A program made the position numbers and the translations under genes. The notes beneath the pieces were generated by a model. It was not told the origin of the DNA. It saw nothing but the letters and a program-made list of their open reading frames with translations, and did no database searches. This document shows, piece by piece, positions 5,590 to 23,172 of a stretch of DNA of 26,538 nucleotides. The stretch spans positions 1 to 26,538 of the IMG/VR virus record IMGVR_UViG_3300044615_001162. The stretch is one strand, 5' to 3'. The first letter of the stretch is position 1. Every line of letters begins with the position of its first letter. Source of the DNA: a virus.

Positions 5590-6492
5590 ATGAAACAAGT
5601 TGTTATCATCCCCGGCGGTTTTCATCCTTTCCATGCCGGTCACTATGAGCTGTACAAAGCAGCAAAAAAACAGTTTCCCACTGCGGACGTTTATATTGCT
5701 GCCACTGACGACACCAGTGAACGTCCATTTCCATTTGCATTGAAAGAAAAACTGGCCAAACTGGCTGGTGTGGATCCAGGGCGTTTTGTCAGAGTAAAGT
5801 CTCCATTTGCTGCCAGCGAGATCACTGATCACTACGATCCAGAAAAGACCACGTTGATCTTTGTCAAAAGCACTAAGAACGCCAAAACTGGTCCCAGTCC
5901 CGAAGGTCCTTTTCCCGCAGAACCTGATCCCAAGACTGGCCAACTGCCCTTGGTCACACGTGGGCCACGCAAAGGTCAACCTGTGAGTGATCGACTTCAG
6001 TATTATCGCAAAGGCCAGCCCATGGCTCCTGCTTCCAGGCACGCTTATTTGGCTTACTTGCCCACAGTAGAGTTTGGTCCAGGCATGACTTCAGGATCTG
6101 AAATACGCCGTGCCTGGCCTGGCCTAGATGAACGCAGGAAAACAGCCTTGGTCATGAGCCTGTATCCCAAAACCCAGACCAATATCAAGTTGGCTGACAC
6201 AGTGGTCAAAATGCTGGACACAGCCATCATGGGTATAGCAGAAGCACTGCCAATACAACCAGTGGCACCTGTGATTCCTGGCGCTAATACACGACAACAA
6301 CCCAAACAACCTGTGTATGTGCCTGATCCTGCCAGGAAGCCTTCGCCAGCTGCTATAATTCACATCAAACCCACTCAAGAAAGCCAAGACTACGTGGAAG
6401 AAAAATGGTCGGCCAAATACAAACAATCTATCAACTGTGCCAGCCCCAAAGGGTTTAGCCAACGAGCACACTGCGCTGGCCGTAAAAAATAA
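5590..6492 (+). CDS. HxGH nucleotidyltransferase with Cys/Lys-rich C-terminal tail
   Basis: 300 residues. The N-terminus is a cytidylyltransferase-superfamily core: GGFHPFHAGH at 9-18 holds the HxGH motif (H15-A-G-H18), and TSGSEIR at 167-173 matches the ISSTxxR signature. Such enzymes transfer AMP or CMP to small substrates, as in NMN adenylyltransferase or glycerol-3-phosphate cytidylyltransferase; the substrate cannot be told. An insertion rich in Pro, Lys and Gly (about 96-150) separates the motifs, which is unusual. A Pro-rich linker (about 238-262) leads to a basic cassette with two cysteines (SINCASPKGFSQRAHCAG). The late-type promoter suggests production with virion proteins; a role in NAD or sugar-nucleotide metabolism is possible. 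Confidence 0.85.
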   Translation: MKQVVIIPGGFHPFHAGHYELYKAAKKQFPTADVYIAATDDTSERPFPFALKEKLAKLAGVDPGRFVRVKSPFAASEITDHYDPEKTTLIFVKSTKNAKTGPSPEGPFPAEPDPKTGQLPLVTRGPRKGQPVSDRLQYYRKGQPMAPASRHAYLAYLPTVEFGPGMTSGSEIRRAWPGLDERRKTALVMSLYPKTQTNIKLADTVVKMLDTAIMGIAEALPIQPVAPVIPGANTRQQPKQPVYVPDPARKPSPAAIIHIKPTQESQDYVEEKWSAKYKQSINCASPKGFSQRAHCAGRKK

Positions 6493-6541: not shown

Positions 6542-7435
6542 ATGTCAGACCAAACCAACACCGTGCCTGATGGCCAACAACAAATCACAGTAAACATTGA
6601 CCTAATTCGCAAAAGCCGAGTTCATATCTGTATGCCTTGTTACGGCGGACAGCTCACTGAACAAACTTTTATGAGCTTTATCAAATGGGCCAACACTGCT
6701 CGTCAGCTGGGCATTGAATGGACTGTGGAAACCATGACCAATGAAAGCTTGATCAGTCGTGCCAGAAACACCTTGGTGGCCAAGTTCTTGGCTTCGCCAC
6801 AAAGCACACACCTCATGTTCATTGATGCTGACATTGGCTGGGAACCCTGGCACTTGTTGGCCTTGATCAACCATGATGTTGACGTCGTAGGTGGGCTATA
6901 TCCCATGAAAACCATGCCTGTTAAATGGTGTGTGAATGGCATTCCTGGTGCCAGAGAAGATGATCCTTCAGGCATGATTGAAGTCACAAAAACAGGCACA
7001 GGATTCATGCTGATCAAACGCGAAGTGTTTGAGAAAAGCAATCAACATCCTGCGGTCAAGAGTTTTGCCAATGACATTGGCTTGCCAGTGGAACTGAATC
7101 AGCACATGAAAACTTATTTTGACACCACTGTGCGTGAAAATCGCTACTATTCAGAAGACTGGACTTTCTGTGAAAATTGGCGCGATTTGGGAGGCCGTGT
7201 ATTTGTGGATCGTCGAGTGCTGTTGCGTCACACAGGAACTTATGTGTTTGACTACGCATCTCAGCCCAAGCTGTATGAAGATCTTTACAACCTGTTTGGT
7301 GGTCAGCCACCGGCACCACCAGTGGTTCCAGCACCTGCGCCCCAGCAGGCAGTTCAGCAGCCAGAAGAACCGCCTGCGCAGCCAGTGTTGGCAGAAATTT
7401 TCTCAACCAACAGAGAACAACCAACGCCTGCCTAA
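6542..7435 (+). CDS. Family 2-like (GT-A) glycosyltransferase
   Basis: 297 residues. Visible GT-A features are an N-terminal beta strand (VHICMPCYGG), a SRARNTLVAKFL helix, the metal-binding DxD (FIDADIGW, D95 and D97), and a YSEDWTFCENWRDLGG segment matching the acceptor/catalytic ED region. It would transfer a sugar from a nucleotide donor, to phage DNA, a virion protein or a cell-surface glycan; the target is not shown. The last ~45 residues are Pro/Ala/Gln-rich and include LAE before an Ile, a possible prohead-protease-type site. ATG 6542 is supported by GAGGA at 6534-6538. It lies next to a nucleotidyltransferase, so joint nucleotide-sugar work is possible but unproven. Confidence 0.88.
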   Translation: MSDQTNTVPDGQQQITVNIDLIRKSRVHICMPCYGGQLTEQTFMSFIKWANTARQLGIEWTVETMTNESLISRARNTLVAKFLASPQSTHLMFIDADIGWEPWHLLALINHDVDVVGGLYPMKTMPVKWCVNGIPGAREDDPSGMIEVTKTGTGFMLIKREVFEKSNQHPAVKSFANDIGLPVELNQHMKTYFDTTVRENRYYSEDWTFCENWRDLGGRVFVDRRVLLRHTGTYVFDYASQPKLYEDLYNLFGGQPPAPPVVPAPAPQQAVQQPEEPPAQPVLAEIFSTNREQPTPA

Positions 7436-7440
7436 AACGG

Positions 7441-7446
7441 TAAATA
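7441..7446 (+). promoter_or_regulatory. T4-type late promoter core, TAAATACT
   Basis: TAAATACT in the 18-base gap before the giant gene. The TAAATA ends eight bases before the ATG at 7454, giving a predicted leader of about two bases. No Shine-Dalgarno is present. Confidence 0.55.
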
Positions 7447-7453
7447 CTCGGTC

Positions 7454-10400
7454 ATGAACATAACCGAGCTCGATCAATACCGTCTCAGTGACGCTGTAAA
7501 ATTCAATCAAACACTGAACCCTCGACTTTGGGACGATCGCGAAAAAATGCGTCCCAAAGTTCGAGAGGCGCTGCTGCGCATTGCTGAAGATTTTCGTGAA
7601 TTTTTGGGTGTGAACGACGTTCAACTCAAAGACATCACAGTTTCTGGCAGCAATGCTGCTTATACCTACACACCACAGTCAGACATTGATCTACACTTGG
7701 TTGTAGACTTGCCCGAAGCTGACAGCAGTGAAGTTTATCGCGAGCTGTTTGATGCCAAAAAGTACCAATATAATGACATCCACAACATCACCATTGGCGG
7801 GTATGATGTAGAGTTGTACGTGGAAAATGCCAATGAACCACCAGTGAGTCAGGGTGTGTACAGTGTGCTGAACGACCAATGGGTAGAAGTGCCTCGACGC
7901 CGAAAAGCACAGGTGGACGATGTCAGTACCAAAAACAAGTACAATGACTTGGTCAACCGTATCAGCAGTGCCATGGAGTCCGGCAATGCTGAAGCATTGG
8001 CATCACTGATGACCAAAATAAAAACCATGCGCCAAGCAGGGTTAGAACAGCATGGCGAGTTTGGACCAGAGAATTTGGCATTCAAAATGCTGCGCAGCCA
8101 AGGCTGGATCAAGAAGCTGGTAGACGCAAGAAATGCTGCTCAAGACCGTGAAATGAGCTTGGACGAACGACGCCGACGCCGCAAGAAACCGCGAGTCACT
8201 TACGGCTGGGGTGGATTTGGCGGCTACTGGTATCCAGGCACTGCTTATGCTGGACAAGACCAACCCGCTGGCAGCGAAGGCACAGAAAGTGTCAAAGAAT
8301 CTCAACACACAGACAATGCTCCCAAACTGCGCACCAGTCTAGAACAAATCATCAAAGAATTTGTGGAAGCCATCAAACAAGAGCTTGGCATTCAACAACT
8401 GCCTGTGATCAAACTGCGCCATGATCCTGAATGGACCAGACGCAACGGCAGCTTTGGTCGCTATGATCCTGATCACAATGTGTTGTACGTGGCCACTGCT
8501 GGTCGTCATGTGCTGGATATACTACGCACGTTGGCTCACGAACTCACTCACAGACGCCAAGCTGAACTGGAAGACATTCCAGACTGGGGCGGTGAGACTG
8601 GATCTAGATTTGAAGACGAAGCCAATGCCATGGCCGGACGCATCATGCGACATCTGGCAGATCAACATCCTGAGTACTTTGCGGACATTGAACTCACTGA
8701 AGCAGCGTCAGGTTACATTCCCAAGAACAGGCGTGAAGCTCGGATGCCTCAGTATGCCATGGCTCTCAGCGTGGACATCAAGCCTGGGCAAACTGGCACT
8801 GAAGCCAACAAATTGGGGTTGAAAACAGGACCCAATGGTGAACCCACTCTGCTGATGAAATCAGCCAATCTGCTCAAAGAATATAAAGAATTCAAACGTC
8901 AGCTATCTCGCAACAATCCTGATCTCAACGATCCTCCAGGACCTGAATTTCGTCCCACCATGCCTGCTGGCACAGTCAAAGTAGATGTCAGTGATGTGTA
9001 TGACTGGTACAAACTGGGCACTCACATCAGCAATTTGAAAGGTCTTGGGCATCATGATTTTGGTGCTGGACCTCCTAGTACCATTGTGAGTTTTGGTGAC
9101 GAAGACACCGAACACAAATTTATTCAAGACCTCCGCGCCACTGGCCTGGATGTCACAGACATAGATCCGCGTGACCCCCGGCAATCGCCTGGTATGAAAA
9201 AGATCAAAACAGATCCCACATACAACGTAGACGAAAGTGAAGTGTTGGACGAAATCAAAATGTCGCCCACCAATCTACATGCAGAAGCTGCCAAGACAGG
9301 TGCCAGGGCCGGCATGGAATTTGAAATGATTGTGCCACCCATGGGTGGCGCCGATGATGTAGAATACGAACCTGACTACGACCGAGACCAGCGCTGCCGC
9401 AGTATTGATGATGCTGTGGAATTTTTCCAGGACGGTGACGGGGATGTAGAACGCCTACGAAAGCGCATGAGGGCTGACTATGAAGAATGGGTCATGGACC
9501 AGATTGACAATGATTGGTACAACAACAAAGACGATGTAATTCGCAGTTGGGTACAAGAAAATGTAGATCCCGCAGAGTGGTTGCCTCTGGTAGATGACAA
9601 CACCAGTGAAGAAGAAGCATTTGAACAGTTTGTGGGAGACATTGTAGACGACCCCACCAGTGATTACTATGACCAAGCTCTGGATGAGTTTAGGGAAGAG
9701 AAATATCAAGACTATGACGAAAACGACTGGTTAAGAGATCAAGATCTTGACCGGATGAGTTCGATTGAAAATGCCTATGACATTTCATGGCCTTACTGGA
9801 ACGAAATCAGCAGTGGAGCAGGAGTAGACATTGACCAAGTGGCTGACAGTTTCAGTCAAGCCATTGGCCGACCTGTTATTGCCAGCTATCGCTATAAAGG
9901 TGCTGAGAGAGAAGAAGGGAAGTACTTTGTCGAGCCCGATGGTAGTTTGAAGCCTAACAGTTCAGATGACATGGGATTGGAATTTGGCACTCCCAAAGGC
10001 GGACTGCCTTTGGACGAATTGTTGAGTGATCTCCCCAAAGTCAAGGCCTGGGCCATTAAGAATGGTTGCTACACCGGCAAAGCCAATAAAACTGGCCTAC
10101 ACATCAACGTGTCTGTGCCTGGCTATGATCTGTCAAAACTGGACTATGTGAAGTTGGCACTGTTACTGGGCGACGAATATGTGCTACAACAATTTGGGCG
10201 CAGCGCAGAACCCTATGCCAAATCTAGCATGATCAAGGTGCGAGAAATTGTGCGGCAAAATCCCAACCAAGCACAGGCCTTGTTGGATAAAATGCGTGGG
10301 CACATGAATCAGTTTGCCAGCAGAGTCATACAGTCGGGCAGCGAAGAAAAAATGGTGTCTATCAATACTCAGGACAAAGATGTTTACATTGAGTTTCGCT

Positions 10401-12100
10401 CACCCGGTGGCGACTGGCTCAAGGCCAACTTTGACAAAATTGAAAACACACTGATGCGATTTGTTGTGGCCACAGCCGCTGCCTTTGATCCTGAAGCTTA
10501 CCGAGAAGAATATCAAAAGAAGCTGTATGACCTGTTGACTGGTAAGACTGCCACCCGTGATCCAAAAACAGGTGATATAGAATGGACAATTGATGCCAAA
10601 GCTCCGGTATGGTACAAAGATGAAAGAACAGTCGATGGCAAAAAAGTATTCACTCCCAAACAGCGTCCAGCATTTAGCACAACAGTTACAGCATCAACAG
10701 CCGATGCTGCTTGGAAAAAAGCTCAAGAGCAAAATTCCACTGAATTGTCTGGTGCCAAAAAAAGTGACTATGTGATTGAACCCAAGAAAAAATCTCAATC
10801 CAACAATGAAGATCTACTGAAGATATTTTCTCAATATTCTGCTGGCAAGCTGCCAGAGTCGGCTTTACGAAGTTTTGTCAAACAAGCACAGTTAAAACGC
10901 CAGATAGCCCGAGATCCCACAGGCGGTCAACAGTACTGGTGGCGTGTGTACAAAGATGGCAAAGGTGCTCGCAACGGTGCCATGATAGAAGTGGTGGCAC
11001 GTACCAAGGCCGAAGCCATTGACAAAGCCGGAGCTGAATGGGGTCTGTTTTCAAAAGAATATCGCAACCTTATGGATGCCGAACCCATTAGGCCTTACGA
11101 TCAATCTCCTGCGAAGGCCCGAGTGGGTGAGCCGCAGCCAGTGGGACAACAGATTGACTACGAAATTTTCAATGTGCCCAACAGCACAGTGGTACACAAT
11201 TTTAGAGCTAGAGACGACGAAGCTGCATTGGCATATTTTGATCAATACATGTCACCCGACGATAGCATCTTCTACGATGTGCGCAGAGCTCCAGCAGCAC
11301 CACAACAAACCTACCTAATTAACAACGGCAGGTATAACACCTCATCTATTAGATCCTCTAGTACAGAAGATGCTATACAGCAATTCAGAGATCGTATAAG
11401 CAATGAATCCAATCCATCAACTTATAGTTTGATATCTGCCGACAATCAAGTTGTGGCCAGAGGCGGAGACCAAGGCACTGGCACACATACCTACAGAGCG
11501 TTTGACCTTAGAAACAACCAAACTCTTGGCACATTCCAAGGCGGTGAGCCAGGATCAGATTCAGCTGCTGAAGCATTTGCTGATATGTTGGCTAGAGAAG
11601 GTATCTCAGCCCAGTATGCTGATTATGAACTGCTGGGACAAGAGCGTCAACGATCACACCCCACTGCTGCCCGCCCCAACCGACCCAATGTAGGCACACA
11701 AACCGACATGGAAAACAGACTGGGCTGGCCAGGTCAAACTGGCGATGCCAACTACGAAATTGTGGATCGTAGAACTCAGCAGCCTGTGTTCTTGTTCGTT
11801 GCCAACACTGAAGCTGACGCTGCGCAAAAATACCAGCAATGGTTAGCTGCGGCTGGCTACTCGTCAGATCCCCAAGAACTTGGATGGCGTCAACGGGAAA
11901 CCACACAGGCCACACCACAGCAATCCAGCGGTGAGTTTACAGGCAACTGGTTGATCCAGGATCCTCAAGGCCGCACCATACACAGATTTGGTGGAGTGGG
12001 CAATGTTCAAAGCGATGCCAATCGCGTGGCCATTGCCTGGTTGCGAGCACACCCTGGCAGCATGCAAGCTGGAGTTACAGTAGTTCCGGAGATGCAATAA
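7454..12100 (+). CDS. Giant multi-domain protein: nucleotidyltransferase, zincin and amidoligase domains plus C-terminal repeats
   Basis: 1548 residues. (a) 1-150: minimal nucleotidyltransferase, with G65-S66, D77-I-D79 and D118. (b) About 290-400: zincin-type peptidase, with HELTH at 362-366 and a likely third ligand in FEDEAN (E387 or E389). (c) About 417-600: unassigned region. (d) About 615-1000: matches the putative amidoligase family (glutamine-synthetase-like fold), with GMEFEM from 620, a GLEFGTPKGG stretch, TGLHIN at 880-885 and EFR at 980-982. (e) About 1130-1548: at least six degenerate repeats beginning near 1161, 1236, 1287, 1347, 1434 and 1499. LTE416 before AA resembles a prohead-protease site. 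The late-type promoter and neighbours suggest a virion or injected multi-enzyme cargo. It could act on host proteins or peptidoglycan peptides; the substrate is unknown. Confidence 0.85.
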   Translation: MNITELDQYRLSDAVKFNQTLNPRLWDDREKMRPKVREALLRIAEDFREFLGVNDVQLKDITVSGSNAAYTYTPQSDIDLHLVVDLPEADSSEVYRELFDAKKYQYNDIHNITIGGYDVELYVENANEPPVSQGVYSVLNDQWVEVPRRRKAQVDDVSTKNKYNDLVNRISSAMESGNAEALASLMTKIKTMRQAGLEQHGEFGPENLAFKMLRSQGWIKKLVDARNAAQDREMSLDERRRRRKKPRVTYGWGGFGGYWYPGTAYAGQDQPAGSEGTESVKESQHTDNAPKLRTSLEQIIKEFVEAIKQELGIQQLPVIKLRHDPEWTRRNGSFGRYDPDHNVLYVATAGRHVLDILRTLAHELTHRRQAELEDIPDWGGETGSRFEDEANAMAGRIMRHLADQHPEYFADIELTEAASGYIPKNRREARMPQYAMALSVDIKPGQTGTEANKLGLKTGPNGEPTLLMKSANLLKEYKEFKRQLSRNNPDLNDPPGPEFRPTMPAGTVKVDVSDVYDWYKLGTHISNLKGLGHHDFGAGPPSTIVSFGDEDTEHKFIQDLRATGLDVTDIDPRDPRQSPGMKKIKTDPTYNVDESEVLDEIKMSPTNLHAEAAKTGARAGMEFEMIVPPMGGADDVEYEPDYDRDQRCRSIDDAVEFFQDGDGDVERLRKRMRADYEEWVMDQIDNDWYNNKDDVIRSWVQENVDPAEWLPLVDDNTSEEEAFEQFVGDIVDDPTSDYYDQALDEFREEKYQDYDENDWLRDQDLDRMSSIENAYDISWPYWNEISSGAGVDIDQVADSFSQAIGRPVIASYRYKGAEREEGKYFVEPDGSLKPNSSDDMGLEFGTPKGGLPLDELLSDLPKVKAWAIKNGCYTGKANKTGLHINVSVPGYDLSKLDYVKLALLLGDEYVLQQFGRSAEPYAKSSMIKVREIVRQNPNQAQALLDKMRGHMNQFASRVIQSGSEEKMVSINTQDKDVYIEFRSPGGDWLKANFDKIENTLMRFVVATAAAFDPEAYREEYQKKLYDLLTGKTATRDPKTGDIEWTIDAKAPVWYKDERTVDGKKVFTPKQRPAFSTTVTASTADAAWKKAQEQNSTELSGAKKSDYVIEPKKKSQSNNEDLLKIFSQYSAGKLPESALRSFVKQAQLKRQIARDPTGGQQYWWRVYKDGKGARNGAMIEVVARTKAEAIDKAGAEWGLFSKEYRNLMDAEPIRPYDQSPAKARVGEPQPVGQQIDYEIFNVPNSTVVHNFRARDDEAALAYFDQYMSPDDSIFYDVRRAPAAPQQTYLINNGRYNTSSIRSSSTEDAIQQFRDRISNESNPSTYSLISADNQVVARGGDQGTGTHTYRAFDLRNNQTLGTFQGGEPGSDSAAEAFADMLAREGISAQYADYELLGQERQRSHPTAARPNRPNVGTQTDMENRLGWPGQTGDANYEIVDRRTQQPVFLFVANTEADAAQKYQQWLAAAGYSSDPQELGWRQRETTQATPQQSSGEFTGNWLIQDPQGRTIHRFGGVGNVQSDANRVAIAWLRAHPGSMQAGVTVVPEMQ
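10934..12097 (+). repeat. Degenerate tandem protein repeats encoded at the 3' end of the giant gene
   Basis: Six copies of one small module begin near 10934, 11159, 11312, 11492, 11753 and 11948, spaced 51-87 residues. The shared pattern is Y/W-x-I/V/F, a turn, a second strand ending in F-x-A/S, then a helix with D/E-x-x-A (examples YEIVDRRTQQPVFLFVANTE and NWLIQDPQGRTIHRFGG). The DNA is diverged, so the duplications are old or the modules were gathered separately. Similar modules occur in four neighbouring genes. Confidence 0.55.
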
Positions 12101-12162: not shown

Positions 12163-13449
12163 ATGAAAGTCACAGACATTGTAACTGAGTCAAACAGCAA
12201 ATCTATTGCCAACGAAGCCGTTCCTTTTATACCGTTAGCAGCAGCAGGTGCAAGGATGGCTGCACCAGCCATAGCCAGAGGTGTTTCTAATCTACTAGGG
12301 CGAGGTGCAAAGCCAGCAACCGATGCGGTAAGGAAAGATCCCAAATTTGATTTTAGTCTGCCTCGTCCACCAGCTAATTTCAGTCAACCAGGCACTATGC
12401 CAACCCAATATAGTACACCCGGTGGATCTGTTATACCGAAGCCGCAGACAATCACTCCAACAAATCCGCCAAACACTCCTCCAGTAACTTTCCAAGGAAG
12501 ATCAGCACCGCCAAGTCCAGCAGCACCAAGAGCACCTAGCATTAACATGCCATCAACAACAGCTCCTACAGGCACTGCTGGGCCAGCAGCTGGCGGCAGA
12601 TCATACACTCCGGTAGATCCTAAAAGTACAACACTAGGTAGATCTAGCACTTCAGATGCGCCAAGAGGCGCGACTAAAGGGGAGATAGCTGCTGGCACCG
12701 CTCTTGGACTTGGTTCTGTCGCTGGTGGTGCTGCCTGGCAACTTGGCCAAGGCAGAGAACCAACACCTTCAGCAGCTACAACCAGTACCAAATCTCAAAC
12801 TCTCGGTAGTTCTCCTATGAGATATAACGCAAGTACGCCGCCAACTAGCCCAGCTGCTACAGTAGCGCCGTCGGCTCCGGCTGCTAGAACAGCACCACCA
12901 AGACCAGCTGGAGGCCCACAGCAGGGGGTTGTGGGATCTCAACTGGCTGCTTTGAGCGGCGGTGAATTTGCAACTCGAGCAGATCGCACCAATCAAGAAA
13001 AAGTTGATGCCATTTTGGGCACAGGATACAAGGCTGGCAGTGCTGCTGCCAACACAGCATTGAGAGATTATTACAAAGCCAACCCACCCCAGTCGGACGC
13101 CCAAAGACAAGAGTTAGTGCAGCAAATTTTCAATCAGAATATGGAACGTGCTCGTCAGCTATCTGCCCAGCAGCAAGCCGCTAATGCTCGACAAGAGTTG
13201 GAGAGGGACAACCCCAGGCTGAGAACAGAGCCAACTGGCAGCGCAGCACCAGCTGCTGGTTCAGCAGCTTCCTTTACTCCAGCACCAGTACCGCCTGCCC
13301 CTGTTGCTGCTCCCAATGGTCAGGGCACACCTGTGAAATCAGGCACTGGACAGACCTGGACAGACAGCAGTGGCCAGCCCATTGTTACCATGCCCGAAGA
13401 AAAAAACAGCTTGATGAGATTGTTGAAGTTGTCTGGTCAAAAGCACTGA
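12163..13449 (+). CDS. Low-complexity Pro/Ala/Ser/Thr-rich protein with CTS-like N-terminus and membrane-like segments
   Basis: 428 residues. The N-terminus MKVTDIVTES resembles the capsid-targeting peptides of T4 internal proteins and ends in a V-T-E site. Two Gly/Ala-rich hydrophobic stretches, about 19-46 and 175-193 (the latter rich in small residues and GxxxG-like spacing), could insert into membranes. The rest is Pro/Ala/Thr-rich and probably disordered, except a helical, Gln/Arg-rich segment at about 280-345. The start at 12163 is chosen over a longer in-frame form because GGAG (12152-12155) and the late promoter lie just upstream. It could be an ejection protein that helps cargo cross the host membrane, or a scaffold or linker; this is inference. 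Confidence 0.75.
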   Translation: MKVTDIVTESNSKSIANEAVPFIPLAAAGARMAAPAIARGVSNLLGRGAKPATDAVRKDPKFDFSLPRPPANFSQPGTMPTQYSTPGGSVIPKPQTITPTNPPNTPPVTFQGRSAPPSPAAPRAPSINMPSTTAPTGTAGPAAGGRSYTPVDPKSTTLGRSSTSDAPRGATKGEIAAGTALGLGSVAGGAAWQLGQGREPTPSAATTSTKSQTLGSSPMRYNASTPPTSPAATVAPSAPAARTAPPRPAGGPQQGVVGSQLAALSGGEFATRADRTNQEKVDAILGTGYKAGSAAANTALRDYYKANPPQSDAQRQELVQQIFNQNMERARQLSAQQQAANARQELERDNPRLRTEPTGSAAPAAGSAASFTPAPVPPAPVAAPNGQGTPVKSGTGQTWTDSSGQPIVTMPEEKNSLMRLLKLSGQKH

Positions 13450-13472: not shown

Positions 13473-14924
13473 ATGCGAGCATCAGAATTTGCTTTGACAG
13501 AATCTCAGACTGCCAAAACAGGCATCATGCAAACTGATGTGTACGGCAGCCGAGCCTATCACGCACGATGTTTGGAACCAGGCTGTGACTGGGAATCACG
13601 CAGATACGACCGTATCCAGCAGGCACAGTCCGCAGCAAAGAAACACGCCGCGACACATTTTGATAAAAAGGCTGTGGCGGAAGGTGCAACCGTAACACGA
13701 ATTGATTCTAAACTTGTTACAGATTTTGCGTCTGGCCTCAAAGCATACAAGCATACAGATGATTGGAGTCAGAGTGGGTTAGATACAGGTGACGATAGTT
13801 ATTGGAAAAACAAAAATCTTAAAACTAACACTACCAAAGGATTGTTTGCTGGTGATCCGCGTAGAACAGCATTATACGCTACAGGCAATGCACATGAAAC
13901 ACGCTATGTAGAATTTACGCAAAACGGTCAACCTATTGTTTATTTTGACCAAAAAGATTTGCCAGCAATGCGTAGTCGTAAAACCTACTTAACTGTGTTT
14001 GATGCTAGCAATTTCAGACAATTACCAACAGGTGAATGGTTTAGTAAAAATCCAGGTAAGCCTATCAAGCAAGTGCCAATCGGTGATCCATTCAAATATA
14101 TCGCTAGTCAAGGGTGGATAGTCCGTGTTACTGATGATTTAGATAAAGTATTCAAACAAGTTCAGAAAATGCACAAAGCAGGCAAAATTCCCTACTATGG
14201 TGCAGAGGGTATGAATGAAAGTAAACAAGGTGTGGCGGAAGGTTTAGACTCCGCAGAAAAAATATCTGGGCTGGTTGATATACCAGCATTTACGCCATCG
14301 GGTGTAGCAAAGGTAGTTAATACCGGTGATAGAATAATGGCAGTTATGAATGTTAAGGGAGTTAACATTCCTTTGTATATCAGCACCGGACAAGGTGGAA
14401 AAGCATCTGTAGCAACTGGGAAATGGTATCCGGTATTTGGTGTAGATCCTTCAACAGGGTGGCTAAACAAAGGCGGGGAAGCATCGATTAACAAATTTTA
14501 CGGAAGTAAGATTTTAGCACTCGCTGCGGCTAGATTAAACAACACATTAGGGGACTTATCTAATGTTGAGGATAAATTACCTGCAATGAAAAGATCAGGC
14601 CAAAGTGTTATCAACAAAGATTTACAACCAATGGGATATTCAGAAGCCGCGGCTAACCCTGATGAATTTAAAAAACGAGTTAATAGTTTTCTCGCTAAAT
14701 TAGGAGAAGGTCCCTTCTATCCAGTAGACAACCCCAAAGAACAAAGTGTGGCGGAAAACTTTGCCGACGGTCGGAAGCCTGGACGTAAAGGCTTGGCCAA
14801 GCGAGTGGGTGTGGACTGTAAACAGCCTGTGAGCAAACTGCGCAGCATAGCCAAAAACTCATCAGGAGAACGGCAACGCATGGCGCACTGGTGTGCCAAC
14901 ATGAAGGCAGGGCGCAAAAAATGA
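13473..14924 (+). CDS. CTS-like N-terminus, zinc finger and VAE-bounded modules with basic C-terminal cassette
   Basis: 483 residues. MRASEFALTE(S) at the start is a capsid-targeting-like peptide. C33, C38, H58 and H62 form a C2H2-like zinc site. Three V-A-E junctions at E70, E256 and E428 split the rest: module 71-256 (unknown, alpha/beta), module 257-428 (unknown, with STGQGGKASVATGKWYPVFG), and a basic end cassette containing RMAHWCANMKAGRKK. The two inner modules are visibly more A/T-rich than the flanks, as if inserted between an original N-terminus and C-terminus. GGTGA at 13461-13465 is a modest ribosome site. The stop overlaps the next start (ATGA). Functions of the modules are unknown; they are probably head-packaged cargo or virion proteins. 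Confidence 0.85.
   Translation: MRASEFALTESQTAKTGIMQTDVYGSRAYHARCLEPGCDWESRRYDRIQQAQSAAKKHAATHFDKKAVAEGATVTRIDSKLVTDFASGLKAYKHTDDWSQSGLDTGDDSYWKNKNLKTNTTKGLFAGDPRRTALYATGNAHETRYVEFTQNGQPIVYFDQKDLPAMRSRKTYLTVFDASNFRQLPTGEWFSKNPGKPIKQVPIGDPFKYIASQGWIVRVTDDLDKVFKQVQKMHKAGKIPYYGAEGMNESKQGVAEGLDSAEKISGLVDIPAFTPSGVAKVVNTGDRIMAVMNVKGVNIPLYISTGQGGKASVATGKWYPVFGVDPSTGWLNKGGEASINKFYGSKILALAAARLNNTLGDLSNVEDKLPAMKRSGQSVINKDLQPMGYSEAAANPDEFKKRVNSFLAKLGEGPFYPVDNPKEQSVAENFADGRKPGRKGLAKRVGVDCKQPVSKLRSIAKNSSGERQRMAHWCANMKAGRKK
13671..14756 (+). repeat. Three VAE-junction DNA repeats in the zinc-finger gene
   Basis: Copies end with the Glu codon at 13680-13682, 14238-14240 and 14754-14756. The core is GTGGCGGAA in all three, and the middle copy reads CAAGGTGTGGCGGAAGGT (14226-14243). 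All use GCG for alanine. They fall exactly where domain boundaries and base composition change, so they look like cassette borders as well as possible protease sites. Confidence 0.7.
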
Positions 14925-15662: not shown

Positions 15663-15848
15663 ATGCGAGCCAAAGAAGTTGCTGGAGATTACAATCTATG
15701 GGGTGCCAGAGTCAGGGTAAAAAATGCCGACTTTGACGACTCTGTAGACGTGGCTGTGTATGCCAAAACTGCATACATGGCTCAGCAGCTGATTCGAGCA
15801 CAGTATGGCCGCAATGCTGTGATCAGCAATGTAAGGAAAATAGCCTGA
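15663..15848 (+). CDS. 61-residue stand-alone copy of the small beta-alpha module
   Basis: 61 residues. After a start resembling its neighbours (MRAKEV; the first eight bases ATGCGAGC are shared with the genes at 13473, 15848 and 17354) come two strands, a helix (YMAQQLIRAQYG) and a last strand (NAVISNVRKI). This is the same plan as the repeated module in the giant gene. Start 15663 is set by the late promoter and by the shared N-terminus; upstream in-frame codons lie inside the GNAT gene. Its TGA overlaps the next ATG (TGATG). Function is unknown. Confidence 0.7.
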   Translation: MRAKEVAGDYNLWGARVRVKNADFDDSVDVAVYAKTAYMAQQLIRAQYGRNAVISNVRKIA

Positions 15849-16429
15849 TGCGAGCCAGCGAATTTGTCACCGAAGCCTGCTGGTCAGATTATCAACAGCA
15901 GGGCATGAAGCGCAAGGGCAATAGAATGGTGCCTAACTGTGTGAAAAAAGAAAGCGCAGATCAAACCATGCCGGCTCTCACCTCAGACGAAGTGCGCCGT
16001 ATTCAACATGTGTTGAATGTTAAGTTTGGCGCCAATCTTGACGTGGATGGTAAAATGGGACCTTTGACTCGCGCAAGCATTCAGCAGCTATTGCCAGCTA
16101 TTAAAAAAACAGCAGCTCCAAATCCCAATAGGACCACGGCGGTACAAGGCGGCTATCTAAAACAAGGCATGATCAAAAACGAGCTAGACGAAGATCTACG
16201 CAAGTGGTTCCGTGAAAAATGGGTGCGTTTTGGTCCTGACGGCAAAATACGTGGCGACTGTGCCAGAGGCAGCAGCAGTGAAGGCAAGCCCAAGTGTTTG
16301 CCCCAAAGCAAAGCACAGGCTCTGGGCAAAAAAGGTCGTGCGTCAGCAGCAGCAAGAAAGCGCAGGCAAGACCCCAATCCAGAACGCTCAGGATCTGCTA
16401 TCAACGTGGCCACAAGGAAGAAAAAATGA
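15848..16429 (+). CDS. CTS-like N-terminus, PG-binding-like domain and DUF5872-like basic tail
   Basis: 193 residues. MRASEFVTEA (1-10) is capsid-targeting-like with a V-T-E site. A short cassette follows with Cys11 and Cys31 (CWSDYQQQGMKRKGNRMVPN then C). Residues about 44-85 match the PG_binding_1 helical repeat (LTSDEVRRIQHVLN, then VDGKMGPLTRASIQQL). Residues about 113-193 resemble DUF5872 (DLRKWFREKW, cysteines at 138 and 150, then a Lys/Arg-rich end). It may bind peptidoglycan or, through the basic tail, packaged DNA; neither is shown. Both ends overlap neighbouring genes (TGATG and ATGA), so it sits in one translation-coupled cluster. Confidence 0.85.
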   Translation: MRASEFVTEACWSDYQQQGMKRKGNRMVPNCVKKESADQTMPALTSDEVRRIQHVLNVKFGANLDVDGKMGPLTRASIQQLLPAIKKTAAPNPNRTTAVQGGYLKQGMIKNELDEDLRKWFREKWVRFGPDGKIRGDCARGSSSEGKPKCLPQSKAQALGKKGRASAAARKRRQDPNPERSGSAINVATRKKK

Positions 16430-17353: not shown

Positions 17354-17560
17354 ATGCGAGCTCGAGAATTTTTACAAGAAGTTGCGGCTGTGACCAGCAG
17401 TGGATCAGTGGCCACTGTGGCCATGCCTTTGATCACACTGTCAAGGCAAGATGGATCCAGCAAGTCAGGTAAATACTCTAACGATCCTGACATACAACAG
17501 GATCAACCAAAAAGGACTTCGCATGCTGTCAGACAGTTTAAAAACTCTATTAGCAAGTAA
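17354..17560 (+). CDS. Short protein with CTS-like N-terminus
   Basis: 68 residues. MRAREFLQEV is one of the best matches to the shared targeting-like peptide, with L-Q-E as the likely cleavage site; its ATGCGAGC start is identical to three neighbours. The remaining ~58 residues are Ser/Thr/Gln-rich and probably disordered, ending basic. It starts two bases after the upstream stop and overlaps the Dps gene by 38 bases, while hosting the Dps promoter and ribosome site inside its 3' half. It could be a minimal internal head protein like the T4 IPs, or the remnant of a larger cargo protein whose body has been lost. Confidence 0.6.
   Translation: MRAREFLQEVAAVTSSGSVATVAMPLITLSRQDGSSKSGKYSNDPDIQQDQPKRTSHAVRQFKNSISK
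17470..17475 (+). promoter_or_regulatory. T4-type late promoter core, TAAATACT, for dps
   Basis: TAAATACT inside the preceding short gene, 47 bases before the Dps ATG at 17523. The leader would contain AAAGGA at 17511-17516, so this gene has a normal ribosome site and its own promoter. Confidence 0.5.
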
Positions 17561-17963
17561 TTTTGCTTACTATCTTAAAGCACAACAGTTTCACTGGAAT
17601 GTGGAAGGTCCAGACTTTGGTGAACTACATGAGTTTTTTCAAAACATCTATGAGGATGCTTATTCAGCTATAGATCCTGTTGCAGAGTACATAAGATATC
17701 TTGACGAGTATGCACCTGGAAGTTTTGAACGCTTTAGCGAGCTAACACAAATTCCAGGCCAGACCAAGATACCACGTGCTCGACTCATGATTGAAGAACT
17801 TTTGGCCAATAATCAACAAATGATTGATTTGTTGAATCGATGTTTTGCAGCAGCAGAACAGGAAAATCAACAGGGTATTGCTGACTTCTTGGCAGGACGT
17901 CTGAGCCAACATGGAAAATATCATTGGCAATTGCGTAGTTATTTGAAAGACGCCAGAGCATGA
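17523..17963 (+). CDS. dps: Dps-family ferritin-like protein
   Basis: 146 residues. The Dps signature is clear in QQFHWNVEGPDFGELHEFF and the following helix. H24, H36, D51 and E55 align in spacing with E. coli Dps ferroxidase ligands H51, H63, D78 and E82; the place of D67 is Q40. Dps dodecamers oxidise and store iron and protect DNA; this one lacks a long Lys-rich N-terminal tail for DNA binding. ATG 17523 is fixed by AAAGGA at 17511-17516, six bases upstream. A longer in-frame form from 17451 would start before the late-type promoter core ends. The stop overlaps the next start (ATGA). It could guard host or virion DNA against Fenton damage, or collect iron for the virion. Confidence 0.92.
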   Translation: MLSDSLKTLLASNFAYYLKAQQFHWNVEGPDFGELHEFFQNIYEDAYSAIDPVAEYIRYLDEYAPGSFERFSELTQIPGQTKIPRARLMIEELLANNQQMIDLLNRCFAAAEQENQQGIADFLAGRLSQHGKYHWQLRSYLKDARA

Positions 17964-18844
17964 GCCAATTTGATATCAGTGGTTTTTTACGACAGTTAGA
18001 CACCATGGAGGGCAAAATCACTCCAGTGGGTGTGAAAAAAGGCTTGAACACGGCGCAACGTGATGTGCCTCAGATGCCAGCCTTGTTCAAGATGAAGGGT
18101 CAAAGTCCTGTGTTGGGCGGCCCTGTTAAACCACATCCCGCTGGCAAGTATTTTGTGGGCGACGACGTTGAAATGGACGTGGCACAAACGCCCTTGGAAG
18201 AAGCCATGCGCAACGTGGAAGAAGACATGTTGAGTCGTGTTAAAAAAGATCTCACACATTATCTTGACATGCTGAGTGATCAAGTCAAAGATCAAAAAGA
18301 AATACAAAAGAAAGCAGTCAAAGACGTAGAAGATCGCAATCCTGCCCGAGCTGGAGATCAAGACACACACGAAGATCAAGAAAAGCTGGATGAATTTTTG
18401 CCAGCTCTGGGCGCTGTGGTAGGACGAGCGTTGGTTGGCAAAGCAGCTCGACCTCTGGCCAAAGCCGCAGCTGGCATGGCTGGACACATTGTGGGATCAG
18501 AGTTGGAACGAAAACTGCGAAAAAATGACATCGACGAAGATCCCACACAACAAGAGTTTGACACTGAACCTGTGCCCACACCTGTTGTGAATCCTACCAT
18601 GCCAGAGTCAGCCAGTTCTAGCTCAGGTGCTCCAGTGGTCATGATTGAACTGGCCGAAGGCGACATGTGCGAAATCTACGGCAACGATCAAGACGGCTAT
18701 CAAGTGCGTCGAGGACAAAGAACCTTGCCCACTCGTTTCAGCGAGTTGGATCATGCCAAAACTGCTGTTCAACTGTGGCGTGCTCGTAGAGCAGCTCAGT
18801 CTCAGCCCAAGCCAATTGATCAAGACTATGTGGATGAACGATAA
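17960..18844 (+). CDS. Helical protein with Gly/Ala-rich hydrophobic segment and C-terminal beta-alpha module
   Basis: 294 residues; the start overlaps the Dps stop (ATGA). About 78-125 is a charged helical, probably coiled-coil stretch. Residues 146-179 are hydrophobic and Gly/Ala-rich with spaced basic residues (FLPALGAVVGRALVGKAARP), amphipathic rather than a plain membrane helix. About 247-275 (YQVRRGQRTLPTRF, then a helix) matches the small module repeated in neighbouring genes. ELAEG at 230-234 is a possible prohead-protease-type site directly before that module. The N-terminus is not of the shared targeting type. It may be a core/scaffold or ejection protein. The TAA overlaps the next ATG (TAATG). 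Confidence 0.8.
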   Translation: MSQFDISGFLRQLDTMEGKITPVGVKKGLNTAQRDVPQMPALFKMKGQSPVLGGPVKPHPAGKYFVGDDVEMDVAQTPLEEAMRNVEEDMLSRVKKDLTHYLDMLSDQVKDQKEIQKKAVKDVEDRNPARAGDQDTHEDQEKLDEFLPALGAVVGRALVGKAARPLAKAAAGMAGHIVGSELERKLRKNDIDEDPTQQEFDTEPVPTPVVNPTMPESASSSSGAPVVMIELAEGDMCEIYGNDQDGYQVRRGQRTLPTRFSELDHAKTAVQLWRARRAAQSQPKPIDQDYVDER

Positions 18845-21800
18845 TGATCTTAAACGAATTTTTTGAATCAAACAAAGGTGGCTCAGAAGTCAAATTAAAT
18901 GAACTGGGACCTGCAGCATTGGCAGCACTGGGCGCAGCAGGCGGAGCCGGGGCGTGGTTGGTCAATAAAATGTTTCCTGACGAAGGCGACCCGCAATTTA
19001 AAAAACCTGAGCCGCCGCCAGAAATCAAAAAACCTCCGCAGAAACCCGACGACCTTGACTACAGCAAACGTGAAACGCTGCCGTCTACTCGGCAAGGCAT
19101 GGGGCCGCGGCCTGAACGCACTGTCAAAGAAGTTGATGCCAAAGTAGAGCCACCAGCAGGCTCATGGCAAGACATTTGGAAACAAAATCCTGATATCAAA
19201 AATCCCCATCTCATATTTCCTGGCCAACAAATAAAGTTGCCCAATAATACATTTGCTGTGGTTGACCGAGGCGACACCCTGAGTGGCATTGCTCAGAGAT
19301 ATCAGCAAGGAGGGTACAACACTGGCAGAGAAATCGCTCCAAACGCTGCGTCTCCAGCATCTGTCAGACCCGCTGCTCAACCCGCGGTTCCTGCTGCTAG
19401 ACCTGCTGCTCAACCCACAGCTCCCGCTGCCAGACCCGCTGCTCAGCCATCTAGAACTGCGCAAAGCAGTCAGTCTGCAATGGCCTCTTTTCCTACCAAA
19501 AGTGGTCGAGTGTATGCTGCTGACTTCAACAATCCCAGTGGCATAGGATGGGACGGCAAAGGCAAGTACACCAGTTACAAATCGCCCGAAGAAGGAGTGC
19601 TGGCCACTAAAAATCTAGTGTCTAGATACATATCTAATCAAACTCCATACATCAAAGGGCCTGCCACTCCAGAACAAGTGGTCAGCACATGGGTCAGTGG
19701 TGGAGTAACACCAGCTGAAAAAATTCAAGGTGGCAGATACTTACAATCAGTGAGAAATGAACTGGCAGCAGCGGGTGTACAGCTAGACAGCCAAGGAAGA
19801 ATACCCAACACGCAGGCTGCCACAGATGCCATAACCAGAGCCATTGTGCGACATGAGACTTCACCAAAACATTTGGACAAATTTGCTCCTTATTTGAACC
19901 CCAAACAAGCTGTACCAGAAGATGTGACGGAAACATCAGACTATTTCCGTCGTAGGGAGCGTGAAGAAGCAATTATCAGTGGTCAAAAACCTGCTCGCAA
20001 AAAACAACCTGTTCAAACCAGTGATTATGCTCGTCGTAGAGAACAGGAAAAGAAAGCCGAGAAAGGTGTAGCGGAAGGCTCTGATACACAATTATCAATT
20101 CAACAATTGGCAACAATCAGCGACGAAGCATTAGATAATGCATATGGTTATGGTCGTAGTAGTCCGGGCAATACTTTTGGTTGGCAAGCAAACCTGATGT
20201 CAGCAGCATACGCTAAAAAAATGATAGATGCTGGTGTTACAGACATTGAAAAAATTAGCGATGCTATACACAAGGGATGGAATGTAACAGCACAAAAGTT
20301 TGTTCAAAATCCTGATCAATTTGATGATACAGAAAAATTGCGTCAAGCAGGAAAATTAGAAGCAAAACTTCAACAAAGAGCCAAGTTAATGAAGATAAAC
20401 TATGCTCAACTTGACAATGAAGAACAAGAAAAAGATCGTGTTGTTGCCCGTGCATTACTACAAGCAATTAAAAATCAACAAGGTGTGGCGGAGGCTGCAA
20501 CAGATGATCCACGTTTTCAAAAGATGATGGGCAACATACAGCAGTCCACTCCCAACCCAGTTAACGGGTATGTGGCAGTCAGCTATGCCAGTGAACGACC
20601 TTCAAAAAAAATCAAAGGTGTTACATACAACGGTAAACCAATGCCCAGCACGGTTGATCCTGAAGAATTCATGGGCAGTAAAATAAAATTCACACCTGAT
20701 CAAATTGAAGAAAAACTAATGAAAATTGGCCAAAAATACGGGTGGGACTCGATTGATCCTGGACATGGCCAAGGCTATGACGAATTGTATTTTGATACCA
20801 GGACAGAATATACATCAGCCACCCAACGTCAACTGGCTGTAAACATAGTCAAGACTGTTGACGAAATTAATAAATTCTTTACCGGAATGAACAGTAGTTT
20901 ACAAGCTACAGGATTACCAGGATACAAAGTAAGTGTATGGCAAGGTATGGGAGAAAATGGCAACATAGATCAATACGAAGATCTATCTCATATTACTAAT
21001 ATTGCCAAGGGCCAGACAGCAAAGCCTGATGCCGGTCCGGCTATTGGTAAAATGATCCTCAAGCACTTACCAAGTTACGAAGCCGAAAATGATGAATTGG
21101 GATATGATCCACAAGATTTTCAAGCGGCCAGAAATATTGCAAATATTTACATCACCAAAGGCGAACGTGCCGGGCTCCAAGCACAGGGCGATTCTGAAGT
21201 CAGTGAAATGATTGACGAATTGCTAAGTGACGCAGGCGCCAGTGGTTTAAGAACTATTTGGGACCTTGACGAGCAAGGTATGGCGGAAGGCTCACTAAAC
21301 GAAGGTCAATATGAAATGATGATGCGTAATGGACAAGTCAAAAAGTTCATTGCCAAAGATGATGCCGATGCCAAGCGTATCGCAGCCGGGCACGGTGCTA
21401 AAAGTGTTATTAAATTAAGAGGCGGGGTTCCTGCCGGTAAAATAGCAGAGCAAGGTGTGGCGGAAGTAAGTTCAAAAACATTAGCCGCAGCAGCTAATCA
21501 GGCTCAAAACAAATATAACTTGGCAGCAAGTTCAGATAACAACTTATCGCACCAAGAAGCCCAGGCCTTGATGAAGTTGTACAAAGATAAAATAGAGAAA
21601 TTCAAAACTGCTGGGCAAGCTGCACAACAAAGAGACTCAAAAAAACAAACTCTAAGTCAGTTTAGTTCAGCAGCACTGAGAAAAGCTGGCGTGGCTGAAG
21701 TCAGTGATGCCACCAAACAAAGTTACAAAGCCAAAGCACAGGCACAGGTACGAGAATTAGAACCACACGCTAAAAAGGGCGAGTATAAAGATATTGCTCA

Positions 21801-23172
21801 GCGAGCCATAGACCGCAGAACCAAAGGTTTGGCTAGAATTGATGTCAAAGATGCGCAAAAGCTGGCACCGCGTGTGAGTGAAAGTTTTGCTATAAAAACA
21901 CCAGAAGGAAGGCCTGCGCTGGGGCAATTCAACATGACCACCGTGGTCAGAGATTATCATCAAAACTTGCCTTTTGCCAATTTGAGTTTTGGCAACAGTG
22001 GCAATTTGAAAATTGATCGCAAGCAGATGCGTATAGTCATGGATCACTATTTGGGACTGCTATCGCCTGAAGAAAAACATGACTTTGTGTACGAAACCAT
22101 GAGCAGACTGCTCAAAGTGGTTGCGCTGTTTGATCGTTACAAAGTTGACGTGCGCAACCAAATTGAATTGCCAGTGGGTCAAAAATCAGAAATTCCTGGA
22201 GTACAGCCCAAACTGCTTGAAGTCGATGCTGGCCAAGTCAAAGACACCAGATTGAGTCAGGCTCTTAAACAAGCTCGAGCTGCGTTTCCCACTGCTGGGT
22301 CTGACATAGAAGCCTTTCTCAAACTGGTCATGAGCAACGACGATCGTGACCTCAAAACCATGAGTCAGCTTCAAGCAGTGAATCAACAGCAGAGCAAAAT
22401 CATCGACCGTATACAAGACATTGATAAAAAACAAAACCAAGAAATTGACAGTCTAGATGCTGAACTGGATCGTGTGACTCAAATCAACAAAGGTCTGGAA
22501 CGCAAACTGGATCAGATGGGCAGAGGCAAACCCAGTAAAAAAGCTGACAAGGCGGAACCAGCTCCAGCCGCAGAACCTGCGGCCACAGCTCCCAAGGCAC
22601 AGCCCAAAGTTGACTTGCCAGTGGGCAGCAAAGTGCCAGTGAAAAAGGCACCGGCAAAGGCTCGGGCCACGTCAGTACCAGTGCCAAAAGCCCCAGAGAC
22701 ACCAGCACTGCCAAACTACAGTGTGAGCTTCAAAGGATTGAGCAAGCCGTCTGGCGATGCGCAGAGAGCTTTGCCTCTGACCAGCCCTGACAACGTGATA
22801 CAGTTTCCCCGATCTCAGCCCAAAGGCATGAGTCTATTTGATCCCAATGAGCCACCCACTGATGTGGTTCCAAAAGATTACAGCAGACTTCAGGCTGAGT
22901 TTGGTCAACCAGACGAACTAGAACCAGAACGTCAGCAAAGATTTGCCGAAGGCACTAAAACAAAAAATATTGGCCAAAAAGATTTTGACAGTTTTTCTGA
23001 TGAAGATTGGGAAGAATGGGACAAAAAGGTTCAGCGGCTGGGCCAGCGAGCTCAACCCAAGCCAGCCAAGGCCAGTGAGCCAAAGGCACAGCCATCAACC
23101 GACAAAAAATCCAACATGACCGAAGCCAGACTACACCGCAGAGCTGTGCTGCGTCAAATCTTAGAATCATAA
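18844..23172 (+). CDS. Giant mosaic protein: CTS-like start, LysM-like, lysozyme-like and RyR-like domains, VAE-bounded modules
   Basis: 1442 residues. (a) MILNEFFES, targeting-like. (b) 21-42: Gly/Ala-rich hydrophobic stretch. (c) 107-155: LysM-like halves (IWKQNPDIKNPHLIFPGQ and RGDTLSGIAQRY), in inverted order to a normal LysM. (d) 175-203: Pro/Ala tandem repeats. (e) About 214-350: lysozyme-like, P5-type pattern (NNPSGIGWDG). (f) 365-402: two TSDY-RRRE units. (g) Five junctions with E411, E550, E815, E874 and E952. Module 412-550 ends like a RyR domain (AIHKGWN, then NYAQLDNEEQEKDR). 551-815 is unknown; 816-874 is a beta-alpha module; 875-952 is helical. (h) About 953-1442: original-looking C-terminus with coiled coil and Lys/Pro/Ala-rich parts. 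Modules are A/T-richer than the flanks. It is probably a late, head- or virion-associated cargo protein that also acts on the cell wall. Confidence 0.85.
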   Translation: MILNEFFESNKGGSEVKLNELGPAALAALGAAGGAGAWLVNKMFPDEGDPQFKKPEPPPEIKKPPQKPDDLDYSKRETLPSTRQGMGPRPERTVKEVDAKVEPPAGSWQDIWKQNPDIKNPHLIFPGQQIKLPNNTFAVVDRGDTLSGIAQRYQQGGYNTGREIAPNAASPASVRPAAQPAVPAARPAAQPTAPAARPAAQPSRTAQSSQSAMASFPTKSGRVYAADFNNPSGIGWDGKGKYTSYKSPEEGVLATKNLVSRYISNQTPYIKGPATPEQVVSTWVSGGVTPAEKIQGGRYLQSVRNELAAAGVQLDSQGRIPNTQAATDAITRAIVRHETSPKHLDKFAPYLNPKQAVPEDVTETSDYFRRREREEAIISGQKPARKKQPVQTSDYARRREQEKKAEKGVAEGSDTQLSIQQLATISDEALDNAYGYGRSSPGNTFGWQANLMSAAYAKKMIDAGVTDIEKISDAIHKGWNVTAQKFVQNPDQFDDTEKLRQAGKLEAKLQQRAKLMKINYAQLDNEEQEKDRVVARALLQAIKNQQGVAEAATDDPRFQKMMGNIQQSTPNPVNGYVAVSYASERPSKKIKGVTYNGKPMPSTVDPEEFMGSKIKFTPDQIEEKLMKIGQKYGWDSIDPGHGQGYDELYFDTRTEYTSATQRQLAVNIVKTVDEINKFFTGMNSSLQATGLPGYKVSVWQGMGENGNIDQYEDLSHITNIAKGQTAKPDAGPAIGKMILKHLPSYEAENDELGYDPQDFQAARNIANIYITKGERAGLQAQGDSEVSEMIDELLSDAGASGLRTIWDLDEQGMAEGSLNEGQYEMMMRNGQVKKFIAKDDADAKRIAAGHGAKSVIKLRGGVPAGKIAEQGVAEVSSKTLAAAANQAQNKYNLAASSDNNLSHQEAQALMKLYKDKIEKFKTAGQAAQQRDSKKQTLSQFSSAALRKAGVAEVSDATKQSYKAKAQAQVRELEPHAKKGEYKDIAQRAIDRRTKGLARIDVKDAQKLAPRVSESFAIKTPEGRPALGQFNMTTVVRDYHQNLPFANLSFGNSGNLKIDRKQMRIVMDHYLGLLSPEEKHDFVYETMSRLLKVVALFDRYKVDVRNQIELPVGQKSEIPGVQPKLLEVDAGQVKDTRLSQALKQARAAFPTAGSDIEAFLKLVMSNDDRDLKTMSQLQAVNQQQSKIIDRIQDIDKKQNQEIDSLDAELDRVTQINKGLERKLDQMGRGKPSKKADKAEPAPAAEPAATAPKAQPKVDLPVGSKVPVKKAPAKARATSVPVPKAPETPALPNYSVSFKGLSKPSGDAQRALPLTSPDNVIQFPRSQPKGMSLFDPNEPPTDVVPKDYSRLQAEFGQPDELEPERQQRFAEGTKTKNIGQKDFDSFSDEDWEEWDKKVQRLGQRAQPKPAKASEPKAQPSTDKKSNMTEARLHRRAVLRQILES
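19366..19452 (+). repeat. 33-bp tandem repeat, three units
   Basis: Units begin at AGA codons at 19366, 19399 and 19432 and encode RPAAQP plus a variable five-residue spacer. They form a flexible Pro/Ala linker between the LysM-like and lysozyme-like parts of the giant protein. The third unit is partial. Confidence 0.8.
20065..21699 (+). repeat. Five VAE-junction DNA repeats in the giant mosaic gene
   Basis: Copies end with the Glu codon at 20074-20076, 20491-20493, 21286-21288, 21463-21465 and 21697-21699. CAAGGTGTGGCGGA is identical at 20479-20492 and 21451-21464, and identical to a copy in another gene at 14226-14239; 21274-21287 differs at one base. Four of five use GCG for alanine. Each marks a module boundary. 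Confidence 0.75.

Follow-up and report, generated by a model that had tools for sequence, protein, structure and literature searches.

Multi-enzyme phage proteins that are delivered together with the genome are already a known idea, under the name of polyvalent proteins (Iyer et al. 2017, PMC5512222). In phage T4, the capsid-targeting sequence has about 10 residues, of which 4 and 7 serve targeting and 8 and 10 processing, and the prohead protease gp21 cleaves after L/I-X-E, D in place of this E blocking the processing (PMC9026906); in the T4 protein Alt, trimming takes place at the sites ITE-6 and LTE-619 (PMC5694885). Here we describe a giant ORF in a 26,538-base virus fragment of a freshwater phage (henceforth the window, meaning this whole stretch of DNA) that resembles both. 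Its chain contains a Pol-beta nucleotidyltransferase, a zincin and, from about residue 600, an amidoligase. These are the three enzymes listed by the initial annotation, which had overlooked two more conserved modules, referred to below as GYIP and the C-terminal repeats.

Table 1. Coordinates of the features in the window. A slash marks the candidate cleavage point in a motif.
Feature	Position	Strand	Residues	Evidence or remark
Nucleotidyl(cytidylyl)transferase, HIGH-type	5590..6492	+		Upstream neighbour; homologue in 30/37 fused loci; cyt_tran_rel E 2e-6
Glycosyltransferase-like gene	6542..7435	+		Immediate upstream neighbour; PHROG 1574, weak Anp1; homologue in 35/37 fused loci
T4-type late-promoter core GTAAATAC	7440..7447	+		14 nt upstream of ATG
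Giant multi-enzyme ORF	7454..12100	+	1-1548	ATG start, intact, 1548 aa
Pol-beta-fold nucleotidyltransferase	7454..8167	+	1-238	PHROG 36119; profile, fold and active site
N-terminal MN-I-T-E, candidate prohead-protease site	7460..7468	+	3-5	[LI]xE near N-termini
VKE/S, candidate cleavage site before zincin	8291..8299	+	280-282
Zincin metallopeptidase	8348..8680	+	299-409	HELTH + E387; profile, fold, active site
LTE/A, candidate cleavage site before GYIP	8693..8701	+	414-416
GYIP module, ends TYNVDE/	8702..9235	+	417-594	Conserved, no known family
LDE/I, candidate cleavage site before amidoligase	9245..9253	+	598-600	Same place as in stand-alone amidoligases
Amidoligase (glutamine-synthetase fold)	9254..10540	+	601-1029	Profile of homologues, fold, active site
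C-terminal beta-beta-alpha repeat array	10544..12097	+	1031-1548	Accompanies amidoligase
Downstream gene, tag MKVTDIVTE/S	12163..13449	+
Downstream gene, tag MRASEFALTE/S	13473..14924	+		DUF6886-like, E 5e-6; homologue in 22 fused loci
Downstream gene, tag MRASEFVTE/A	15848..16429	+
Downstream small gene, tag MRAREFLQE/V	17354..17560	+
Second giant ORF, tag MILNEFFE/S	18844..23172	+		1442 aa; LysM, repeated QGVAE/[GAV] motifs

Relatives for all three domains were collected by profile scans of viral contigs, one scan per domain, and AlphaFold models of the three enzymes were used for fold comparison. When the whole ORF was searched directly, the nucleotidyltransferase alone scored, and sequence searches of the PDB gave no match. 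Each domain was called on the joint evidence of sequence profile, catalytic residues and fold, the Foldseek E-values against the PDB being borderline (about 1e-3 to 2e-2). On these grounds the claim that three enzymes with intact catalytic motifs share one chain was borne out: the active sites are invariant in relatives, and structure comparison recovered nucleotidyltransferase, zincin and glutamine-synthetase folds for the respective modules.

The first module matches PHROG 36119 over residues 15–235 (E 4e-41, up to 40% identity). Pfam NTP_transf_2 is matched by 38 of 39 relatives (best 5e-6), the window sequence itself remaining below threshold (E 0.0033). In the alignment of relatives S64-G65-S66, D77, D79 and E120 are invariant (39/39), in agreement with the GS and DxD parts of the originally proposed GS/DID/D118 motif. 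Position 118, on the other hand, is D in only 32 of the 39 and P in 6; because D118 varies and E120 does not, we take E120 to be the third acidic residue. The model resembles AadA/ANT, MNT and CdnD/E nucleotidyltransferases (Z 6–7.3; best Foldseek E 1e-3, borderline). With GS motif, DxD, third carboxylate and fold all present, this module is a Pol-beta superfamily nucleotidyltransferase of predicted activity. The PHROG 36119 proteins of Synechococcus, Maribacter, Lak and Caulobacter Cr30 phages belong to the same family but stand alone, whereas the window copy is fused; the cyanophage and Cr30 genes that we examined are located in the replication region, and the Cr30 protein starts with MRKFSQLLE/D. 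Scanning bacterial genomes for the nucleotidyltransferase-zincin pair did not reveal the pair, only two remote matches to the nucleotidyltransferase.

For the second module, the proposed HELTH motif held: H362, E363, H366 and E387 are invariant in 39/39 relatives. DUF6782 ('putative metallopeptidase') was matched by 13 of the 39 nucleotidyltransferase-zincin homologues, and the model is similar in fold to Wss1, selecase and IrrE (Z 7–8.8), the best being Wss1 (Z 8.8, rmsd 2.9, 99 aligned). HEXXH, third zinc ligand and fold are thus all present in what is a zincin metallopeptidase, again of predicted activity.

The amidoligase segment of the window had no direct match to Amidoligase_2 (PF12224), a family matched by 38 of 44 homologues of the region (best 3e-13). 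G620, E622, E624, E827, D829, E843, H883, R916, F981 and R982 are invariant in all 44 and E980 is present in 41, so that the E/H/EFR pattern noticed earlier is conserved. The best 50 VIA matches of the model are all from the glutamine-synthetase superfamily (GS, GmaS; Z 9.9–11.2), and among viral structures it matches proteins of uncultured phages that are annotated as amidoligases. We conclude that the third module is a member of Amidoligase_2, with glutamine-synthetase fold, ExE/H/ExR active site and predicted activity. Phage amidoligases (PF12224, PHROG 2443) share this fold and the ExE/H/EFR constellation with the window, but the known ones stand alone, whereas the window copy follows the nucleotidyltransferase, zincin and GYIP and carries a repeat tail. 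That of Agrobacterium phage Atu_ph07 (AUZ94978) is 27% identical to it (the query was one letter off the window, GFEFEM for GMEFEM, which did not affect the result), and its N-terminus, LTE/LKM, resembles the window joint. A match of PADLOC 'oligonucleotide-cyclase' to residues 932–1001 (18.7 bits) and Pfam matches to XPC-binding, Sin3 and AcaB were rejected as chance. Another enzyme combination is seen in the BFVD entry A0A6J5KPZ7 (uncultured phage), which has a related amidoligase-like region and a deoxycytidylate deaminase domain.

The GYIP module matched no known family and the C-terminal repeats had no match in Pfam or PHROG. Part of the repeats (11000–12097) bears a weak Foldseek resemblance to ribosomal eL20/LX-type proteins (E 0.16 or worse), which is a lead and not claimed as a relationship.

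The architecture recurs elsewhere. In an HMM survey of the fetched loci, a single ORF encoded all three enzymes at 37 IMG/VR loci (29 distinct sequences), the order being mostly nucleotidyltransferase-zincin-GYIP-amidoligase-C-terminal repeats and the length 1217–2082 aa; the three-enzyme fusion is a real, recurrent family. The same survey returned partial architectures, namely 12 ORFs with nucleotidyltransferase-zincin-GYIP, 44 with nucleotidyltransferase-GYIP, 34 with amidoligase and C-terminal repeats and 73 with zincin only. In INPHARED (50,697 phage genomes) no GenBank phage record has the fusion, and cultured phages carry single modules only: besides the nucleotidyltransferases and the Atu_ph07 amidoligase mentioned above, a single zincin is found in Synechococcus phages B23, where it starts with MNYKQFLRE/S, and S-SRM01. 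Parsimony counts six changes of the amidoligase from fused to free or back, of which at least two are forced by well-supported branches.

What the joints between modules have in common is an [LIV]xE motif, which is that of the T4 gp21 prohead protease. The window ORF has five candidate sites (ITE-5, VKE-282, LTE-416, VDE-594 and LDE-600), the first of which has a close parallel in ITE-6 of T4 Alt (PMC5694885). Of 81 distinct N-termini, 66 have [LI]xE among their first 7 residues and 71 have E at position 5. LxE precedes the amidoligase in 29/29 distinct fusions (36–59% in the shuffled flanking window, by window size), and [LIV]xE occupies the same place in 35/35 stand-alone amidoligases. All 12 distinct cases have [LIVMF]xE directly before (A/S)xGYIP, against about 3 expected from shuffled sequence, and the motif precedes 50 of 59 internal zincins (21 expected). 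Relative to composition, LxE density is 1.9x in linkers, 1.3x in the nucleotidyltransferase, 1.0x in the amidoligase and 0.3x in the zincin. Since the motif is short and has copies inside the nucleotidyltransferase and amidoligase as well, the accessibility of a site must matter.

Zincins and amidoligases encoded on their own begin with a tag that resembles the T4 capsid-targeting sequence (M[KR]xx[ED]xxLxE): the zincins with MKIQELLIE/S, MKKFKQFLNE/S, MLKFKQYLKE/E or MRASQFIVE/G, the amidoligases with MKYLELLEQTLNE/INMSP and similar. Among distinct stand-alone N-termini, [LIVMF]xE ends at residue 8–12 in 17 of 19 zincins (3.3 expected by shuffling) and 17 of 23 amidoligases (6.5 expected), whereas across all genes of one relative the same count shows no excess (27/350 versus 23.9). 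In the relative genome G001, 6 genes have a tag-type N-terminus, against 1.7 by shuffling with a maximum of 6; either the tag is uncommon there or our regular expression is too strict. In the fused chain the N-terminus is MNITE, which is shorter and similar to that of Alt.

We consider it somewhat probable that the ORF encodes a late, head-packaged 'polyvalent' precursor of the Alt/internal-protein type, which the prohead protease cuts into separate injected enzymes. The N-terminus of the chain would serve as capsid-targeting tag, and during head maturation a gp21-family protease would cut after [LIV]xE in the flexible linkers, freeing the nucleotidyltransferase, the zincin peptidase, the GYIP module and the amidoligase with its repeat tail. 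They would be ejected along with the DNA and act independently as infection begins: the nucleotidyltransferase would attach a nucleotide to a protein of the host or a small molecule, the zincin would cleave a host protein, and the amidoligase would make an amide bond on a metabolite or a protein of the host. We infer packaging, cleavage, ejection and all three enzyme activities; delivery with the genome would follow from the tags and joints seen in the sequence. More tentatively, and with a little less than even confidence, the chain may be a phage counterpart of the viral polyprotein, in which one chain with one targeting tag is separated at internal sites by the capsid-maturation protease, head maturation doubles as effector release, and modules are added or lost at the sites.

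The initial annotation had pictured a single chain that modifies, cuts and ligates host targets. As modules occur as separate genes in other phages and LxE lies at the joints, a delivery precursor is likelier than one coordinated machine, and the switching of the amidoligase between fused and free forms favours independent action. It is nonetheless conceivable, if unlikely, that the protein is packaged and leaves the head as a single chain, with no more than its N-terminus removed, and that the enzymes act together on the host, as the module order up to the amidoligase is kept in most fused ORFs and the N4 virion RNA polymerase is a polyvalent protein packaged uncut (PMC5512222). The concentration of LxE at the joints, the interchange of fused modules with solitary ones and the long linkers, predicted to be disordered (residues 250–292), all argue against such joint action.

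Rather improbable, in our view, is that the motifs are no protease sites but conserved caps at the N-termini of the modules, and incidental to processing. They are short, and at the amidoligase joint the conservation runs on downstream (LxE-[IV]xM-S-P, with M at +3 nearly invariant). P1' there is I/V, against A/S/D/N at the other sites. Because conservation continues into the domain, LxE at this joint might be structural, as the N-terminus of the fold, and the amidoligase joint is the weakest point of the cleavage reading. Incidental caps would nevertheless have to explain the same motif ahead of three unrelated folds, a freely variable residue between L and E, and a location in low-confidence, probably disordered sequence (the first four residues of the amidoligase model have pLDDT < 50).

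The genomic setting is consistent with a packaged precursor. Late timing, as initially annotated, is supported by GTAAATAC ahead of the ATG and by TAAATA at most 60 nt upstream of 95 of 109 nucleotidyltransferase-starting genes (background 0.036 per 60 nt). The window lacks an exact copy of the T4 late promoter TATAAATA; informative here is the shorter core TAAATA, five of whose six plus-strand copies lie just before a gene start. Among 15 large relative contigs examined, the same 8 have gp21 (PF03420) and gp23 (PF07068) together; five of the gp21-carrying contigs have all three enzymes fused (L134, L135, L055, L067, L063), and gp21 was not seen in the 26.5 kb window itself. In identity, the gp23 proteins of the relatives reach 65% against those of jumbo phages such as Vibrio phage 2.275.O and PA5oct and 61% against that of GAP32, and their N-termini carry a KYLKE/NASAG-type site ahead of the conserved core. 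Judged by these head genes, the relatives with the fused gene are T4-type phages, and the phage of the window is probably a T4-like jumbo phage.

Upstream there is a conserved order of Clp-type ATPase, genes 4316 and 5194, cytidylyltransferase and glycosyltransferase-like gene, for which 26 to 35 of the 37 fused loci have homologues. The last two, just upstream in 30 and 35 of these loci, would suit an unpackaged late cytoplasmic enzyme acting with them, e.g. in glycan modification of virion or cell surface. We regard this as quite improbable, since it leaves the targeting-type tags and protease-type joints unexplained and an amidoligase and a zincin are unexpected in a glycan pathway. Least probable of all is that the embedded zincin, and not the prohead protease, frees the other domains: zincins are the commonest polyvalent domain and have been proposed to process such chains (PMC5512222), and that of the window is central with an intact active site, but the joint motif fits gp21-type specificity and recurs at the N-termini of stand-alone zincins and of amidoligases, including those without a fused zincin.

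Several other neighbours deserve mention. A Clp-type AAA+ ATPase (2098–4374) and a DnaJ-like protein (1214–2050) lie upstream, and the Clp gene is kept near the fused gene in 26/37 loci. Genes at 13473, 15848, 17354, 15672, 14921 (a GNAT-like acetyltransferase) and 18844 encode otherwise unrelated proteins with a common MRAxEF/MRIQEI/MILNEFFE-type tag; the tagged neighbours may be further head cargo. The second giant ORF (18844–23172), with its QGVAE/[GAV]-type motifs between segments, looks multi-module with xAE-type joints. A Dps/ferritin-like protein (17523–17963; Ferritin E 1e-23) is near many related genes, and a basic Cys-containing C-terminal motif (SPKGFSQRAHCAGRKK-like) recurs on unrelated proteins (6400–6489, 14850–14921, and in L148).

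Should the cleaved, head-delivered precursor be correct, polyvalent effectors and T4-type head cargo would be joined by a rule readable in sequence, [LIV]xE at module starts. Injected effectors would then be predictable throughout the T4-like and jumbo phages, most of whose head cargo is without known function, and an amide-bond-forming enzyme, a chemistry not in the 2017 survey (PMC5512222), would join the arsenal used at the start of infection. Our literature search found no paper describing the nucleotidyltransferase-zincin-amidoligase combination, in keeping with the earlier remark that it is not known as a described effector.

Polyvalent proteins, which occur in phages and conjugative elements, are single polypeptides of mobile elements that combine 2–15 domains with unrelated biochemistry; the window chain has three enzymes and two further modules. 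Like them (PMC5512222), it is a large phage protein, presumably delivered with the genome, of unrelated chemistries that include Pol-beta nucleotidyltransferases and zincins. Their nucleotidyltransferases come mainly from Firmicute mobile elements, the word amidoligase is absent from the paper, whereas the window chain has one, and the window joints carry gp21-type LxE in place of a reliance on the zincin alone. T4-type Alt, for its part, is said to lie outside the genuine polyvalent proteins (PMC5512222). With T4 Alt and IPI-III the window family shares a short N-terminal tag ending in [LI]xE, the late promoter core and a presumed role as enzymes carried in the head and ejected into the host (PMC9026906, PMC5694885), and its relatives have a gp21/gp23-type head. 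Each of the T4 proteins has a single function and is trimmed at the ends, whereas the window ORF has several enzymes in one chain with motifs between them. The best reading of these likenesses is that the window ORF would work like T4 Alt and the internal proteins, while by its architecture it belongs among the polyvalent proteins (PMC5512222).
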